Below are positions 14,456 through 33,159 of a stretch of DNA of 35,206 nucleotides, one piece after another; position 1 is the stretch's first letter; the number at the start of each line of letters is the position of its first letter. The stretch lies in the NCBI GenBank assembly GCA_019686135.1, contig JADGHL010000045.1:1-35206 (forward strand), written 5' to 3'. Position numbers and translations under genes: made by a program. Source of the DNA: Myxococcaceae bacterium. Lineage in GTDB: Bacteria > Myxococcota > Myxococcia > Myxococcales > Myxococcaceae. The notes below the pieces were generated by a model. That model searched no databases, was not told the origin of the DNA, and was given only the letters and a program-made list of their open reading frames with translations.

Positions 14456-17400
14456 ATGACCGCCCCGGTCCTTCTCGTCCACGACGACATCGCCACCATT
14501 GCGTCCGTCCGGCGGTTGCTCGCGCGCGACGGGTTCGAGGTGATCCTCGCCACCTCGGCCGCGGATGCGGTCATCGCCTTCGGGCACTACCTCCCGTCGC
14601 TGGTGATCCTTGCGCCCGGTGTGGAGGGAGGCCGCGGGCAGATCGTCCTCGAAGAGCTGGCGCAGCATCCCGATCGCACGTTCGCGCGTGTGCTGCTCCT
14701 GGGCGAGTCGGTGCCGGGCTTCGGTGCGCCGGTGGTGCCCTTGCCGCTCGATGGTCGCTCCTTCCTCGAGCTCGTCCATCAGGTGATGCGCGATCCGTCG
14801 GACGGCGCGTCGTGGCGCGTGATCGAAGGCCACCGGCGAAAGACCACCGAGATCCCCGCGCTGGTGCCGCGCGCGCCCGAGGAGTGGCGGGCGACCGGCC
14901 CGCGGGAGGCAGAGAGGGATCTCGAGGAGGAGCTGCTCGGCGCCGCGAGTCAGCTGGACGAGGCCGACTGGGAACTGGCGGCGATGACGTCCGACGAGCG
15001 GCTCGCGTACCGGCGGGAACAGCTGCGCGCCCGTCAGGCGGAGGCGGCCGCACAGGCCGCGTTCGAGGAGACGCACCGCGAGGTCGAAGCGGAGGCGATC
15101 GCCACGCTGGAGAATACGCTTCCGGATCTGCAGGAGCCCTCGCCGCCGCCACCGGCCTCCCGGCCCGATCTCGACGCCGAGCTGGAGGACTTCGAGCGCG
15201 AGGTCCTGGAGGCGGTGCACGAGCGGCGGCGCCAGCGTGAAGCCCGCAAGGCCGCCCAGGCGAGGGAGGCGCTGGAGCGCGCACGTTCCGACGCCGGTCC
15301 AGGTGCCGACGCTTCGTCGCCACCCGGGCCGGTGACGGAACAGACCGACTGGTTGGGCGACGAGGACGGGGCGGCGAGAGCAGAGCGCGCCCGGCGGGAA
15401 GCGGAGGAGGCCGCGGCCGAGGAGGCCCGCCTCGCCGCGGAAATCGAAGCCCGCGCGCGCCGAGCGGCGATCGCCGAGGACTGGCTCCGGGAGGACCCGG
15501 AGATGGGCGCGAGCCTGAACTGGAACGACGCGCTGACCACGCCGGCGGCCGGTGAGGAGTCCGGAGTGCCCGCCGAAGGCGGAGGAGCGGAGTTCGAACG
15601 GGAGCCCACGTGGTCCGCGGGGGAGGGAACCGCGGCTCAAGTGGAGGAGTCGCTTTCGGTCGGCGCGGAAGAGGTTGCGCAAGCGGGCGTCGCAGGCGCT
15701 GAAGCGGAGCTGGCGCAGAGCGCGGGGGGGCCGTTCGCTGCGGAGGAAGCGGCAGCGGGCGTAGACACCGAGGCGTCGTGGTTCTCGACGCGGGAAGAAG
15801 CGGAGCGCGCGGCGGAAGCGGAGATCGCAGCGTCGGCTGAAGGTGGAGACGCTGAAGCCCAACGCGCAGCGGCGCCAGAGTGGGCCGTGGAAGAGCCGCG
15901 GCCTTCGGCAGACGAGCCAGCCGAGGAGTTGTGGTTCGCGACGCGAGGGGAAGAGAACCGCGCAGCGGAAGCGACGGAGTTCGCTGCGTCAGCTGAAGCT
16001 GAAGGCAGTGAAGCCGAACGCGTCGCAGAGGAGTTACACGCAGGAGAGGCTGCGTCGGCTGCAGAAGAGGCACGCCGTGCAGCGAGGGAGGAAGCGGAAC
16101 GGGCTGCGGAAGCGGAGATTGCAGCGGGAGCGGCGCCCTTCGCTGCGCCCGCCGAAGTTGAACGCACTCAAGCCGAACTCGAAGCGGTGCCCGAGCTGAC
16201 CGTGGAAGGGTCGCGGATTTCGGCGAGCGAGCTGGCCGAGGAGTCGTGGTTCGCGACACGACAGGATGCGGAGCGCTCAGCGGAAGCGGAGATCGCAGCA
16301 GGAGCGGAGCAGATCGCCGCGCCAGCTGAGGCAGAAGGCATTGAAGCCGAACGCGCCGCAGAGGACCTCGATGAGGCGGAGGCTGCGTCGGCTGCTGAAG
16401 AGGTACGCCGCGCGGCGTTGCACGAAGCGGAAGGGGCTACGGAAGCGGACGCAGCAGGAGCAGAGTCGTTCGCTGCGCCACCGGAAGCTGAAGGCGCTGA
16501 AGCCGACCGCGTAGTGGCGGCCGATCTGACCGCGGAAGAGTCGCGGCTTCCGGCGAGCGAGCTGGCCGAGGAGTCCTGGTTCACGGCGCGAGAGGAAGCC
16601 GAGCGCGCAGCGAGCGCGGAGCGGTTCGCTTCGCCAGATGGAGCTGAAGGCACGGAAGCCGAACGCGCCGCGGAGGAGCTCCAGACAGCGGAGGCTATGT
16701 CGGCTGCGGAAGGAACGACCCGTGAGGCATGGGAGGAAGCGGAGCAGGCTGCGGGAGCGAGGCGGATTGCTCCGCGAGCCGGCTCTGCGCATCCGGAAGC
16801 CGAGCGTGCGGCTGAGGCGGAAATTGTCCCGGTAGCGGCGCGGTTCGCTTCGGCATCTGCAGCAGACGGTTCGGCACCCGGACTGACGGCGGAAGATCCG
16901 CGACGCGCAGTCGAGGCCGAAATAGCCGAAGAAAAAGGCGCCGACGCTGGATTCGCCGCGGACGCGGAGGTGTTTTCCGCGCGCGCCGACATTGAGACTT
17001 CGGAACCTGGGCTGGCGGCGGACGCCGGGTTCGCTTCGGAAGCGATACCGGAGGGGCGGTTCACTGCGCCCGCCGAAGCAGTAGGCCCACCCGCCGAGCT
17101 GACCGCGGGTGCGGGGCGACTCTGGACGCGCGAGGAAGCGGAACGGGCGGCGGCAGCGGAGATCGAAGCGGCACGATCTTCTGCGCTCGATGAAGCAGAG
17201 GGCGCGGAGGCTGACCTGGTCGCGGACGAGGCACCACCCTCGGCGCGAGAGGAAGCGGAGCAGACTGCGGAAGCGGAGATCGACGCGCAGGGCGCGGAAG
17301 CCGGGCTGGGCGCTGCGGAAGAGGCAGACGACGGCGGCGCGGCCGACTTCGGAGCGGACGCGGCGCTCGACGAAATAGAACCCGCGGCCGAAACCGATTT

Positions 17401-19165
17401 CGCCCCTGAGCGTGAGGCCCGGCTCGCAGCCCGCGCGGCGCGGTTCGCGGCGGCCGAGCGCTCCTCCTTCGACACTTCGTCCGTGGCCGACCTGTCGCGC
17501 CAGGCCGAGCTCGAAGCCAGGCTGAAGGAGGCGGAACAGCGACGCATCGAGGCCGAGGCGCGGGCTCGCGCGGCGGCGGAGGCGCGGGCGCAGCTCGAGG
17601 CGGAGCTGGCGGCGGCGGCGAGCGAACGCGAACGGCTCGCGGCGGAAGCGCGTACCCGCGCGGCGCGCGAGGCGGAGCTCCTGGCGCTGCTGACGGAGAA
17701 GGAGGAGGCGCTCGCGGCGGCGACGGCACGTGTCGAAGCGCTCATCGCTCGCGAACGGGAGGCGTCCAACGCTGCGCAGGCTGCCCGGGAGGACGCCGCG
17801 AGGGTCAAGCGCGACACGGAACGCCGCGCGGACGAGCTCCGCGCCGAAACGGAGGCGACGATCGCGGCTCTTCGCCAGAAAGCCGAGCGTTCCGCGGAGG
17901 TCGCCCGGCGGGAGCGGGAGGAACGGGAAGCCCTGGCCGCGCGGCTGGCGCTTTTGCAGCGCGAGAGCGACGAAGCCCAGGCCCGCGCGGATGCGGCCCA
18001 GCGCCTTGCCGAGGCGGAACGGGCTCAGCTCGAAGCGGAGCAGGAGGCCCGCGGACAGGCGCTGCGCGAAGCCGCGCGCGCCCGAGACGAGGCGGAGACG
18101 GCGGCGCGGGTCGTCCACATGCCCTTCGACAGCCCGGCTCTGCGCGCGCTCGACGTCCCGCCGGCCGGCACCGTGCAGACCGAGGAGCTCGCGCGGCTCA
18201 TCCTGCGCCTGTCGACCTCCCGCGCCGAGCTCCGGCTCGATCTCCGCGTCGACGACGCGCTGCGCACGCTCTGGTTCCAGCGCGGGTTGCTGGTGGGCGC
18301 GGCGTCCTCGCTCGCGCACGAGTCGGTGCTGGCGCGTGCCCGGCGCGACGGGCTCATCGACTCGCGGCAGGACGCGGAGCTGCGTGCCCTCCGCGGAATG
18401 TCGCAGGGTGAGCTTCTGCAGCGGCTGCGCGCGCGCGGCTACCTGCGTGACCACGAGGTGGTGCCGCTGGTTCAGCGGTACACGGAGCACATCGCGCTCG
18501 AGGCGCTGGCCGAACCGAAGTCGGACTACCGCCTCGCCGACGATCCGCCGCCTCCGGGCGTCCCGCTCGCGGCGATCCCGCGGAACCCGTCCCACCTCGC
18601 GTTCGAGGCGCTCCGCCGTGCGCTCGATGGCGAGCAGGTGTTGATCGCCTCCGGCGGCCTGGGGGCGATCCCCAGGCTGCGCGAGGAAGATCTCGATCTC
18701 CGCGCCCTCACGCTGGGCGATCGCGAGCGCCGGTTCCTCGGCCTCATCGACGGAGAGACCAGCGTCGAGGAGCTGCTGCTCGCGTCCGGCCTGCGCCAGG
18801 AGACCGCGCTGCGGATCCTCGCCGCCGGCGCCGCGCTCGGCTGGTTCGAGATCGAGCCCGCTCCGGCGCAGGATGCTCCGCCGAGCGCCGAGCTCGAGCT
18901 CGATCGCCTGGAGGCCAAGTTCCGCGAGGTCCAGGACGCTGACTACTTCGCCATCCTCGGGCTCGCCCGGTCGGCGGGAAGCGACGAGGTCCTCCGCGCG
19001 TTCCAGCACCTCTCCGCGGAGTTCGATCCGCTCAAGTTCGCCGGTCACCCGGACGCCACCGTCCTGCACCGCGCCCGGGTCGTCCACGAGGCCCTGGCGG
19101 AGGCCGCTCAGGTGCTCCGGGACGATCGTCTGCGCGAGAACTACGCGCGGCACCTTCTGGATTGA
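14456..19165 (+). CDS. Giant pseudo-receiver / Ala-Glu repeat / coiled-coil / DUF4388-like / degenerate J-domain protein, 1,569 aa
   Basis: Residues 5-118 look like a response-regulator receiver domain with the acidic pair D10-D11 kept. The phosphoacceptor position is alanine (LVILAPGV, A53) and the switch lysine is missing, so it should not be phosphorylated. A charged helical section follows to about residue 330. From about 440 to 950 runs an Ala/Glu-rich region of imperfect long repeats. Residues about 1015-1220 are a dense coiled coil. Residues 1222-1355 resemble DUF4388/PATAN (VQTEELARLILRLS, then LWFQRGLLVGAASS), followed by a helical section to about 1470. The last 75 residues resemble a J domain (DYFAILGLARSAGSDEVLRAF) but carry DPL where HPD is needed. 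FrzS and AglZ, myxobacterial polarity proteins, share the receiver-plus-coiled-coil idea. There is no signal peptide. TAAGCT lies 11 nt before the ATG. A scaffold role is an inference. Confidence 0.85.
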   Translation: MTAPVLLVHDDIATIASVRRLLARDGFEVILATSAADAVIAFGHYLPSLVILAPGVEGGRGQIVLEELAQHPDRTFARVLLLGESVPGFGAPVVPLPLDGRSFLELVHQVMRDPSDGASWRVIEGHRRKTTEIPALVPRAPEEWRATGPREAERDLEEELLGAASQLDEADWELAAMTSDERLAYRREQLRARQAEAAAQAAFEETHREVEAEAIATLENTLPDLQEPSPPPPASRPDLDAELEDFEREVLEAVHERRRQREARKAAQAREALERARSDAGPGADASSPPGPVTEQTDWLGDEDGAARAERARREAEEAAAEEARLAAEIEARARRAAIAEDWLREDPEMGASLNWNDALTTPAAGEESGVPAEGGGAEFEREPTWSAGEGTAAQVEESLSVGAEEVAQAGVAGAEAELAQSAGGPFAAEEAAAGVDTEASWFSTREEAERAAEAEIAASAEGGDAEAQRAAAPEWAVEEPRPSADEPAEELWFATRGEENRAAEATEFAASAEAEGSEAERVAEELHAGEAASAAEEARRAAREEAERAAEAEIAAGAAPFAAPAEVERTQAELEAVPELTVEGSRISASELAEESWFATRQDAERSAEAEIAAGAEQIAAPAEAEGIEAERAAEDLDEAEAASAAEEVRRAALHEAEGATEADAAGAESFAAPPEAEGAEADRVVAADLTAEESRLPASELAEESWFTAREEAERAASAERFASPDGAEGTEAERAAEELQTAEAMSAAEGTTREAWEEAEQAAGARRIAPRAGSAHPEAERAAEAEIVPVAARFASASAADGSAPGLTAEDPRRAVEAEIAEEKGADAGFAADAEVFSARADIETSEPGLAADAGFASEAIPEGRFTAPAEAVGPPAELTAGAGRLWTREEAERAAAAEIEAARSSALDEAEGAEADLVADEAPPSAREEAEQTAEAEIDAQGAEAGLGAAEEADDGGAADFGADAALDEIEPAAETDFAPEREARLAARAARFAAAERSSFDTSSVADLSRQAELEARLKEAEQRRIEAEARARAAAEARAQLEAELAAAASERERLAAEARTRAAREAELLALLTEKEEALAAATARVEALIAREREASNAAQAAREDAARVKRDTERRADELRAETEATIAALRQKAERSAEVARREREEREALAARLALLQRESDEAQARADAAQRLAEAERAQLEAEQEARGQALREAARARDEAETAARVVHMPFDSPALRALDVPPAGTVQTEELARLILRLSTSRAELRLDLRVDDALRTLWFQRGLLVGAASSLAHESVLARARRDGLIDSRQDAELRALRGMSQGELLQRLRARGYLRDHEVVPLVQRYTEHIALEALAEPKSDYRLADDPPPPGVPLAAIPRNPSHLAFEALRRALDGEQVLIASGGLGAIPRLREEDLDLRALTLGDRERRFLGLIDGETSVEELLLASGLRQETALRILAAGAALGWFEIEPAPAQDAPPSAELELDRLEAKFREVQDADYFAILGLARSAGSDEVLRAFQHLSAEFDPLKFAGHPDATVLHRARVVHEALAEAAQVLRDDRLRENYARHLLD
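15776..17300 (+). repeat. Degenerate long tandem repeats inside the giant gene
   Basis: The coding DNA repeats a unit whose product contains (S/L)WFATR, EEAERAAEAEIAAGAE, AAPAEAEGxEAERAAE and ASAAEE. The WF-type landmark recurs at about 15776, 15929, 16244 and 16573, with a related one near 17117. The two best units are about 315 and 329 bp long, so the repeats are not exact and probably diverge by drift and slippage. The region is almost free of hydrophobic core residues apart from the W-F pair. Confidence 0.75.
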
Positions 19166-29700: not shown

Positions 29701-30259
29701 CCCGTGAACGGTCGTCCACCCGCGCCGCATGCGAACGACGCCGCGGCACCATCCGGCGGAGGTGGACCTTGCCGCGCGCGCTGTTCCACCACACGTCCGG
29801 TCGCTCCCCGGCATCGAGGCCGCTTCTGAGGTTCGGCCCCGGCGTCCACGGGACGAGCCAGCGCACCGCCGGACGGCTCGACCGGTCCACCGGCTGCACC
29901 GGTGTGAGAGCGGGCACCGCCGGGCGGGTCGCCTCGTTCACCGGCTGCACCGGTGTGAAAGCGGGCACCGCCGGACGGGTCGCCTCGTTCACCGGCTGCA
30001 CCGGTGTGAGTGCGGGCACCGCCGGACGGGTCGCCTCGTTCACCGGCTGCACCGGTGTGAGTGCGGGCATCGCCGGACGGGTCGCCTCGTTCACCGGCTG
30101 CACCGGTGTGAGAGCGGGCACCGCCGGACGGGTCGCCTCGTTCACCGGAGCCGGGACGAGACAGCACGCCGCCGGATGGGGCGCCCGGTCCACCGGCGGC
30201 GCCGCGCAGGCCAGCACCAGAAGACCGAGCGCCAGCGCCCAGGCGGCGCGGGCAATCAC
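29597..30259 (-). CDS. Repeat-bearing lipoprotein translationally coupled to recA
   Basis: The GTG at 30259 overlaps the recA stop (GTGA), so it should be translated by ribosomes finishing recA. A lipoprotein signal peptide ends in LVLAC (Cys18). The mature protein has five near-identical 17-residue repeats, [17 protein letters not shown], rich in Pro and Thr. They are flanked by related partial copies ([15 protein letters not shown]). The last 60 or so residues (from about [13 protein letters not shown]) are Arg-rich and run 104 bp into the opposing DUF1285 gene, so the original stop may have been lost. The repeat segment probably forms an extended, proline-rich wall- or periplasm-spanning spacer. 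The coupling and the signal peptide argue that the minus strand, not the opposing open frame, is the coding one. Function unknown. Confidence 0.65.
29888..30142. repeat. Five 51-bp tandem repeats
   Basis: Exact 51-bp units start at 29888, 29939, 29990, 30041 and 30092, and a broken sixth begins at 30143. The units differ at a handful of positions, for example GAGAG, GAAAG or GAGTG, and CACC or CATC in the fourth unit. Each unit contains ACCGG-CTGCA-CCGGT, a short self-complementary stretch. The length is a multiple of three, and the translated minus-strand frame is preserved, so this is a coding minisatellite and not a CRISPR array. Confidence 0.95.
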
Positions 30260-31305
30260 GCCGCCGCCTCCTCGAGCGGGCCCGGCTCCTCCGGCAGCGG
30301 TTCGGCGGCGGTCCCGCGGCTGGTGCTGACGATCTTCGCCGCCAGGCTCTCCATCTCGCGCGGGTGCTCCTTGAGCCACTCGATCGCGCGATCGCGGCCC
30401 TGTCCGATCCGTTCGCCGTTGAGCGAGTAATGGCTGCCGGACTTCTCGATGAGGCCCAGGGCGGTGCCCAGGTCGACGATCTCCCCCGGCCGGTTGATGC
30501 CGACGCCGTACAACAGGTCGAACTCCGTCTCCTGGAAGGGCGGGGCGAGCTTGTTCTTCACCACCTTCACCTTCGCGCGCGAGCCGATGACCGCATCGCC
30601 CTCCTTGATGTTCCCGGTCCGGCGGATCTCGCAGCGCACCGACGCGTAGAACTTGAGCGCATTGCCGCCGGTGGTGGTCTCCGGGTTCCCGAACACCACG
30701 CCGATCTTCATCCGCATCTGGTTGATGAAGATGATGCACGTGCCCGACCGGCTGACCGCGCCGGTGAGCTTGCGCAACGCCTGGCTCATCAGCCGGGCCT
30801 GCACGCCCATGTGCGCGTCCCCCATCTCGCCTTCGATCTCCGCGCGCGGCACGAGCGCGGCCACCGAGTCGACGACGATCAGATCGACCGCGCCCGAACG
30901 GACCAGCTGCTCGGTGATCTCCAGCGCCTGTTCGCCGGTGTCCGGCTGGGAGATGAGCAGCTCCTCCACACGGACGCCGAGCTTGCGCGCGTACGTGACG
31001 TCCAGCGCGTGCTCCGCGTCGATGAAGGCCGCCACCCCGCCTTGGGCCTGCACCTGCGCGATCGCGTGCAGCGTGAGCGTGGTCTTGCCGGACGACTCGT
31101 TGCCGAAGATCTCGACCACGCGCCCGCGCGGGTAGCCGCCCACGCCGAACGCGCGGTCCAGCCCCACCGAACCCGAGGGGATGACGGCGACCTTCTGATC
31201 CGAGGTCTCGCCGCCCAGCTGCATCACCGCACCCTTGCCGAACTGTTTCTCGATGGCCGCCACCGCCGCGGCGACCGCCTTCAGCTTCTCGCTGACCTTG
31301 CTCAT
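30256..31305 (-). CDS. recA: Recombinase RecA
   Basis: The ATG at 31305 gives a 349-residue protein starting [17 protein letters not shown]. Features are GNESSGKTT (residues 68-76, Walker A with Lys74), [53 protein letters not shown] and the C-terminal DNA-binding region ending in an acidic tail ([12 protein letters not shown]). RecA forms filaments on single-stranded DNA, drives strand exchange and triggers LexA self-cleavage. Most bacteria have GPESSGKTT; here Pro is replaced by Asn. A GAGGGCGGG stretch before the ATG serves as ribosome-binding site. I saw no convincing LexA box upstream. Its stop overlaps the start of the repeat lipoprotein gene. The cinA gene lies nearby on the other strand. 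Confidence 0.98.
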
Positions 31306-31600
31306 CCCGCCCTCGCTCCGAATCGTCCGCCGGTGAAGTCCGGCGAGAACGCGGAGCGGCGGATGAGCAACGCCCATGCCGCGCGAGCCTGAGAGCGGAG
31401 GACGCACCCAGGGCTGTCCCGAATGGCGAAGACCGTCCGCGAAAGCGGAGGAGCATCGATGTCGCTCAGGAGCTGAGAAACGCGCGCGCTGAGGCCATGA
31501 GATTGGGGGCGCACAAGCACCCGAAGTCCGAGTTCGCAGGCCAGCGCCACGCGGCGTTCCTCCGCGCCCTGCGCGGCGGTGTCGACGCTGTGCTACCCGG

Positions 31601-31690
31601 ATGAGCGAAGCCAGGCAGTGTGTCAGGCCCGGCGCTCTTCGACGCCTGCTGCAAGAATCGCCACATGGGCGACGGCGGTGCCGGGGGCTC
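31601..31690. repeat. Dispersed hairpin repeat, copy A
   Basis: The copy starts with GAAGCCAGGCAGTGTGTCA-like sequence and is bounded by CCCGGC (31628-31633) and GCCGGG (31680-31685). Within it, TCTT and AAGA can pair, and CGCC-ACATG-GGCG can form a small stem. It matches copy B across about 80 bp. Confidence 0.7.
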
Positions 31691-31732
31691 CTTCACTCCC
31701 TCCGCGGCAGTGGCCGCTCTGGGTTACCGAAG

Positions 31733-31820
31733 CTACCGAAGCCAGCAGCGTGTCACGCCCGGCGCTCTCCATCCTGCCGGAAGGATCGCCACATGGGCGG
31801 CGGCGGTGCCGGGCGGACCT
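31733..31820. repeat. Dispersed hairpin repeat, copy B
   Basis: The ends are GCCCGGC (31757-31763) and GCCGGGC (31808-31814), a perfect 7-bp inverted pair. Internal ATCCT-GCCGGA-AGGAT and CGCC-ACATG-GGCG make two more short stems. Compared with copy A the first internal stem has changed on both sides, which is what a conserved RNA or DNA fold would show. Confidence 0.7.
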
Positions 31821-31944
31821 CCTCCACGACCGCCGCGAAAGGTGCCCGTTGCGTCGTTGCAGCGGCTGAAGATTCGGGGCGGCTACTGCGTTCCGAGCGC
31901 CGCTCGGCGCCTGCGCGGCGTTCGCCGCCAGCCCCCGCCGCCGA

Positions 31945-32015
31945 ATCGAGGCCGTGTGCTCGTTGGCGTCTGCCGCAGGGATCGCCACCCGGGCGGCAGC
32001 GGAGCCCGGCGCGCC
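31945..32015. repeat. Dispersed hairpin repeat, copy C (degenerate)
   Basis: It shares GCAGGGATCGCCACCCGGGCGGCAG-type sequence around the core at 31981-31988, with the CGCC/GGCG stem kept but the loop changed to ACCCG. The outer CCCGGC/GCCGGG ends are not both present. Confidence 0.5.
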
Positions 32016-32130
32016 TTCAGCGCCCAGCGCGACAGTCACGCCGTCGTGTCCGCCGCACCGTGCGACGGGGTTCGGCACTGGCTGCCACGCCCGCACAGCG
32101 TTCCCGCAAGTCGCCGGAGCCAGCCGGCGT

Positions 32131-32190
32131 GGACGGCCCCGCGTTCGTCGCGCCAGCTGCAGGTATCGCCACATGGACGCGCCACCGCGA
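32131..32190. repeat. Dispersed hairpin repeat, copy D (degenerate)
   Basis: Similar to the others around CTGCAGGTATCGCCACATGG (core at 32165-32172) but diverging on both sides. Counted as a weak copy. Confidence 0.45.
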
Positions 32191-32265
32191 GATGGCGGCC
32201 CTCCACGACCTGCGCAACCGTGGCCACATCGTGCCGCCCCCGCCGGCGAAGCGTGGGGGCGCTTG

Positions 32266-33159
32266 CTACGCGCGTCCTTCCACGCCTGCCGGTGCGATCG
32301 CCACGTCATCGCCGCCGCGGCCGCCGATCTCCCGGTGCATCCGGATGATGATGTCGCGGGTGCGGCGCATCAGGTCGTCGCGGTCCGCCGGCGTGAGGTG
32401 GGCAGTCTCGATCGGTTCGCCGATCTTCATCCGGATCAGCGTCGGGCGGATCCGGAAGCCGTCGCGCGGGAGCATCCGGCCGGAGCCCTCGATCGCGACC
32501 GGGACGATCGGCACCTTGGCCTCCAGCGCCAGCATGAAGGGCCCCTTCTTGAAGGGGAGGATGGTCCCATCCGCGCTCCGCGTCCCCTCCGGGTAGGCGA
32601 TGATGTTGGCGCCCTCGCGGATCCGCTCACCGGCCTTGTGCAGCGACCGCACCGCTGCGGCGCGGTTCGAGCGGTTGATGAGGATCATCCCCGTGAATTT
32701 CATGTACCAGCCGATGAAGGGCACCTTCCCGAGCGTGTGTTTGGCGACGAAGCGCAGGTTGGCGGGGATGCCCGCGAAGGCGCAGGCGATGTCCGCCATC
32801 GACTGATGGTTCATGAGGTAGATGTGCGGCTTCGACCAGTCGATGTCCGGAAGCGGCTCCACGGCGAGGCGCGAGCCCGTCATCGCGATGAGCGGCGGCG
32901 CCCACATGGTGCGGGCCATCGCGAGCGGCAGCTCCCGGCGGAAGGTGACGAGCCCTGCGACGAACGCGCACGTGATGCAGAAGGCCGACCAGACGCCGAG
33001 GAAGATCGCCTGCAGGAGGTTGATCAGCGGGAAGATCGCCTCCAACCATGCAGGGCGGGGCGCGGCGTCGGGCGCGGGCAGGGAGGCCAGGCGCGGAGCC
33101 GCGGCGTCGGTCGCATCGGCGAGGGGGAGCTGCTCGTCAGGTCGCTGGGCTGCGGACAT
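32266..33159 (-). CDS. plsC: 1-acyl-sn-glycerol-3-phosphate acyltransferase
   Basis: The acyltransferase motif NHQSMAD (residues 117-123, catalytic His118 and Asp123) and the substrate-binding motif EGTRS (around Glu191) are both present, with the FIGWYMKFTGMILINRSNRAAA segment between them. This is the PlsC layout: it transfers an acyl chain to lysophosphatidic acid at the inner membrane and makes phosphatidic acid. One or two hydrophobic helices (residues about 40-75) anchor it. The ATG at 33159 is preceded by GGAGG. The last 18 residues, GGRGGDDVAIAPAGVEGRA, resemble the translations of the dispersed repeats downstream, so the gene's 3' end seems to have been duplicated or to have been picked up from them. 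Divergent from the NADH dehydrogenase gene. Confidence 0.95.
   Translation of the reverse strand: MSAAQRPDEQLPLADATDAAAPRLASLPAPDAAPRPAWLEAIFPLINLLQAIFLGVWSAFCITCAFVAGLVTFRRELPLAMARTMWAPPLIAMTGSRLAVEPLPDIDWSKPHIYLMNHQSMADIACAFAGIPANLRFVAKHTLGKVPFIGWYMKFTGMILINRSNRAAAVRSLHKAGERIREGANIIAYPEGTRSADGTILPFKKGPFMLALEAKVPIVPVAIEGSGRMLPRDGFRIRPTLIRMKIGEPIETAHLTPADRDDLMRRTRDIIIRMHREIGGRGGDDVAIAPAGVEGRA

Follow-up and report, generated by a model that had tools for sequence, protein, structure and literature searches.

A decayed tandem array, probably derived from the end of plsC, in the enlarged plsC–recA spacer of a Myxococcaceae bacterium

The spacer between plsC and recA in a Myxococcaceae bacterium, analysed here within a contig of 35,206 nucleotides (the window), holds a head-to-tail array of long, diverged repeat units. 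We consider it probable, at roughly three chances in four, that these units are decayed tandem copies of the end of plsC together with the spacer that follows it, and that they form an ordinary local repeat that is most likely functionless. We see a local repeat here, and not a mobile element, because searches of the genome yielded no further copy and a conserved fold was not detected. It is arranged in tandem, carries no coding signal and has no detectable copies elsewhere; the tail of the neighbouring plsC is ancestral and the spacer is enlarged, with plsC itself and the DNA immediately before recA left intact.

An earlier reading made from the sequence only had described dispersed short hairpins, four of them intergenic, that share a core with the 3′ end of plsC. 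The shared core is real: the octamer ATCGCCAC stands at 31657, 31785, 31981 and 32165 and also at 32297 within the plsC end, with 11 occurrences in the window against 1.5 expected, and ATCGCCACATGGRCG, with up to three mismatches, is found 12 times where 3.2 are expected (reached in 0 of 100 shuffles). The copies described before are merely the best-conserved parts of longer units. In local alignments of 171-nt segments around the cores, all pairs of the four full units A to D align over about 165 nt with scores above 500 of 500 dinucleotide shuffles, and the feature is therefore a tandem array (Table 1), a single head-to-tail, non-coding one whose ~130-nt unit is set by the alignment of A to D, in place of short hairpins. 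The word "dispersed" does not hold either, as the copies form one local array and the genome search gave no further ones.

Units A and B are 77% identical and the other pairs 59–63%. The four units lie on a single strand, and successive starts are 128, 196, 184 and 132 nt apart, the final figure being the distance to the plsC core. Two of these intervals carry an extra 50–60 nt; when the two extra spacers were compared with each other, the similarity was reached in 65 of 1000 shuffles and homology between them is not clear. Tandem Repeats Finder did not report the array, because its units are long (~130 nt) and 23–41% diverged. It did not escape our attention that the window contains other repeats: just downstream of recA, at 29863–30148, lies a near-perfect tandem repeat of 51-nt units (~5.6 copies, 94% match) that encodes 17-aa repeats in a frame with a lipoprotein-like start overlapping the recA stop, and a 1569-aa reading frame at 14456–19165 on the plus strand has long internal degenerate repeats, with units near 156 nt from ~15.8 to 17.3 kb.

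Table 1. Positions of the array units and neighbouring features in the window.
Feature	Position	Strand	Basis or remark
recA, downstream of the array	30256–31305	minus	translation; relatives' homologues up to 87% identical
plsC–recA spacer	31306–32265		both flanking genes on the minus strand
sigma-54-type −24/−12 motif, GGCATG-GGCG-TTGCTC	31365–31380	minus	~75 nt upstream of recA
Unit F, partial and decayed (probable), recA side	31541–31598	minus	profile 17.4 bits, E 1.2e-4 in window
Unit A, full	31605–31733	minus	profile R1 99.0 bits, build sequence
Unit B, full	31735–31863	minus	profile R1 85.4 bits, build sequence
Unit C, full	31926–32059	minus	profile R1 83.3 bits, build sequence
Unit D, full, ~130 nt, first past the plsC stop codon	32112–32244	minus	profile R1 80.9 bits, build sequence
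plsC 3′ end matching unit positions 35–108	32269–32334	minus	profile 14.7 bits, E 8.4e-4 in window
plsC, 1-acyl-glycerol-3-phosphate acyltransferase-like, intact	32266–33159	minus	Pfam PF01553 Acyltransferase, E 4.5e-31

The link to plsC comes from the flanks of the array. A sequence-only profile, R1, was built from units A to D alone and run over both strands of the 35-kb window (70 kb). Units A to D score 81–99 bits, as they must with a model built from them, and the two best further matches in the window are the immediate flanks of the array, the probable unit F and the plsC end, on the same strand and displaced by no more than a few bases from the expected phase. Matches in phase on both sides are hard to get by chance, although neither score would be conspicuous at genome scale. 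Genome-wide, the match to the plsC end has an E value of ~0.4 and is not significant, so that position, strand and phase carry the assignment. Pairwise comparisons of the plsC end with the units are no more than suggestive (reached in 7–27 of 500 shuffles), at identities of 0.49–0.54 versus 0.59–0.77 between the units themselves. Unit F is called probable because its own pairwise shuffle tests were not significant. Unit A further retains a stop codon (TGA, 31623–31625) at the position that matches the plsC stop, ending in GVEERRA* where plsC ends in GVEGRA*; both translated ends had been given correctly in the earlier reading.

Which came first, the gene end or the repeat? Homologues of plsC are present in 60 of 60 genomes searched, and the C-terminus of the window protein, GGRGGDDVAIAPAGVEGRA, has recognisable counterparts in homologues from the family and the order, which end in the same motif (GGAGGVPEAIADAGTEGR, GGRGGVPQAIAERGQEGR, GGEGGVEQDIAAVGVEGV, GGPGGDKETAIAKVGREGE). 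The pattern GG.GG...AIA..G.EG is conserved in relatives that lack the array, the nearest relative compared having a plsC that is 61–64% identical. As the tail is conserved in relatives, it is ancestral, predates the array and involves no insertion, and the comparison of the plsC C-terminus with that of array-free relatives, which had been proposed as a check, thus returned homologous tails. The core of the repeat, GTGGCGAT, is the sequence that encodes V-A-I in this tail.

The neighbourhood of the gene in relatives agrees with this order of events. The adjacency of plsC and recA is kept at 11 relatives' loci, with a spacer of 127–293 nt versus 960 nt in the window; locus L050 is left out of this range because its plsC reading frame is broken. 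The plsC homologue at L050 (G012:C589) has an in-frame TGA in a draft genome, either through a sequencing error or because the frame is truly interrupted. The relatives compared all lie outside the genus, and no intermediate state was met among them. The model found no array units in the relatives' plsC–recA spacers, and the single weak profile match among the plsC loci (15.4 bits, at L046) belongs to a locus where recA is not adjacent to plsC. Of the two origins that had been offered for the repeats, the duplication of the plsC tail over several rounds is supported by the adjacent, in-phase units, the ancestral tail and the enlarged spacer.

The other origin offered was a mobile palindromic element, of the REP/BIME or MITE kind, that had inserted at the end of plsC and then multiplied. 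As had been claimed, CCCGGC/GCCGGG brackets units A and B, whose 60-nt cores have a slight folding advantage over shuffles (z −1.5 and −1.7). Units C and D, however, are without full inverted ends and show no such advantage, every copy is adjacent, in phase and in one orientation, the plsC tail is ancestral, and no transposase-like Pfam match was found in five reading frames across the region. The genome that was searched comprises 5.5 Mb in 245 contigs and is 97% complete, which leaves room for a few copies in gaps. With the whole array as blastn query, the best match outside the array had an E value of 0.02 over 31 nt; the best profile match outside it scored 15.3 bits (E 0.09), a size found in most relatives' genomes, and exact-core patterns were near background. 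The pattern CTGCNGNNGGGATCGCCAC matched 36 times versus 9 for its reversed control. Five of the 36 lie in the array and the others, with one or two mismatches, at scattered sites, the full-unit model reaching at most 15.3 bits outside the array. A dispersed element was rejected, since patterns, blastn and profile gave no copy outside the array above background, and plasmid and phage collections held no match to the array. Across 58 family genomes the profile gave weak matches in 56, of at most 23.7 bits; these were read as GC-rich genome background, and presence of the array in relatives was rejected.

With no unlinked copies to be found, a mobile element is largely refuted, and we regard it as most unlikely: neither further genomic copies nor structural covariation was found, only A and B carry the inverted hexamers, and the tail is ancestral. 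The array resembles REP/BIME elements in being extragenic and short and in the inverted ends of two of its copies, and differs from them in being undispersed, in the lack of alternating orientation and in the lack of a conserved hairpin. Elements of the REP/BIME or MITE type have many dispersed genomic copies, which this array does not, and each of their copies carries a conserved hairpin or inverted terminal repeats, where here CCCGGC/GCCGGG is confined to A and B.

Integrative elements can leave copies of the 3′ end of a gene downstream of that gene. Copies of the plsC end would be just such a leftover if recombination at an att site in the 3′ end of plsC had produced them as scars. This origin has only the slightest probability, as the units are adjacent, at most ~60 nt apart, and free of any recognisable cargo or integrase, and their similarity spans the whole ~130-nt unit instead of a short att core.

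A conserved fold had been proposed on the grounds that copies A and B change both sides of an internal stem (TCTT/AAGA versus ATCCT/AGGAT). This apparent compensatory change is an alignment error. The 3′ arms, AAGA in A and AGGAT in B, do overlap in the alignment (columns 84–87 and 82–86), whereas the 5′ arms lie apart, with ATCCT of B at columns 93–99 and TCTT of A at about columns 101–104; since these columns are not homologous, the arms do not represent one stem in two variants. Folded singly on either strand, the units behave like shuffles, save for the mild tendency that the 60-nt cores of A and B show, and the consensus fold on the minus strand, that of the mRNA, is no better than column shuffles (z +0.44). 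On these two results a conserved fold was rejected for the mRNA strand, and the fold proposed earlier finds no footing.

The units might still be structured RNA elements, for instance repeated hairpins for 3′ processing or termination of the plsC mRNA. Consensus folding of the plus strand does moderately better than column shuffles (z −2.4, reached in 5 of 300), and the alifold pair counts on the minus strand are above shuffles, a comparison that favours structure by construction because the structure is derived from the same four sequences. The plus-strand value is not backed by the single folds, comes from a test of both strands, and would concern a transcript antisense to both genes. Together with the mRNA-strand consensus fold, the single unit folds on both strands and the non-homologous arms, the lack of any Rfam match in the window at gathering threshold, so that no known structured-RNA family is represented, makes this reading very unlikely. 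No tRNA was found. A coding array was likewise rejected: the spread of G+C between codon phases is 0.04–0.20 across the array versus 0.4–0.55 in the neighbouring genes, and the sole Pfam match among the tested frames is at chance level (E 0.19).

How could a local duplication have produced the array? In our proposal, a segment of ~130 bp, comprising the last 60–70 nt of plsC and ~60 nt of spacer past its stop, would have undergone several rounds of tandem duplication in the plsC–recA spacer; slippage during replication or unequal recombination of neighbouring copies is the probable mechanism. The direction would have run from plsC to the array, and the extra copies, lying outside the gene, would then have diverged as non-coding DNA. 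The presumed outcome is the four full units and the probable fragment, with the plsC–recA spacer lengthened from the family norm to its 960 nt, and most likely no role for the array other than as spacer. Against this proposal stand the weak match of the plsC end taken by itself, the closer resemblance of the units to one another than to plsC, the uneven spacing and the slight over-conservation of the core.

Two known kinds of repeat come close to such an array. Like a degenerate bacterial minisatellite or VNTR, it is head-to-tail at one locus, non-coding and undispersed, with an origin by slippage or unequal recombination; it differs in that its units are long (~130 nt) and 23–41% diverged. 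Adjacency and confinement to a single locus, by which minisatellites are recognised, are both found here. As in a partial tandem gene duplication, the flank is the 3′ end of an intact parent, the copies follow it directly and in one orientation with it, a stop codon persists in copy A at the homologous place, and the unit in the flank is an ancestral piece of the parent gene. Unlike in the simple case, the array reflects several rounds and strong decay, and the similarity between parent and copies is weak and short (66 nt).

Does the array act on the gene that follows it? It might be a cis-regulatory region of recA, for example with repeated binding sites around the core CCCATGTGGCGAT. The array is directly upstream of recA, and the 8-nt core is identical in A to D, slightly beyond what neutral decay leads one to expect (permutation p 0.018). 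In addition, a −24/−12-like motif lies between array and recA in the window (Table 1) and upstream of this recA in most relatives. Those relatives, however, carry the recA motif without the array and with a short spacer, the spacing of the cores (128–196 nt) is irregular, and the origin of the core is already explained because it is plsC coding sequence. No function was found for the array, and its acting as the regulator of recA is unlikely. There is a small chance of some regulatory role, in view of the mildly over-conserved 8-nt run and the location of the array ahead of recA. More specifically, plsC-derived units with the core CCCATGTGGCGAT could have been co-opted as protein-binding sites upstream of the sigma-54-type motif of a recA that lacks a LexA box, a suggestion to which we give very little weight.

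The recA motif itself emerged as a by-product of this analysis. It fits the −24/−12 consensus pattern of sigma-54 promoters. In a search of the 300 nt upstream, GGC(A/C)(C/T)(A/G)-N4-TTGC is present at 26 of 30 loci of this recA type, the window included, at 50–108 nt from the gene; the expected rate is ~0.012 per 300 nt of one strand, with a background averaged over all loci fetched and a pattern that had been loosened after the first matches were seen. The second recA, examined in 12 genomes, lacks a sigma-54-type motif. In 11 of the 12 it has a 16–17 of 17 match to the LexA box, for which we take the Myxococcus consensus to be CTRHAMRYBYGTTCAGS, and in the twelfth a match of 15 of 17 on the other strand.

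In M. xanthus, a LexA box is present at recA2 and absent at recA1 (PMC7029660). Mitomycin C raises the level of both RecA proteins, as does deletion of lexA (PMC12288472), and earlier work, as cited there, describes recA1 as LexA-independent. We infer that the recA of the window is the recA1 orthologue from its missing LexA box rather than from a comparison with the M. xanthus sequence. In the titles and opening lines of the abstracts searched, we found no proposal of sigma-54 for recA1. The family-wide motif suggests, as far as sequence goes, what is possibly a concrete basis for the LexA-independent recA1 of Myxococcus.

In conclusion, the array offers a readable example of how the 3′ end of a gene may give rise to a local array and make an intergenic region several times longer, and it advises caution, as common short cores and GC-rich inverted ends can mimic a mobile hairpin. 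Should the units have been co-opted after all, recA expression in this lineage would hinge on how many copies of a duplicated gene end are present. For the biology of the family, the recA motif may matter more than the repeat array beside which it was found.
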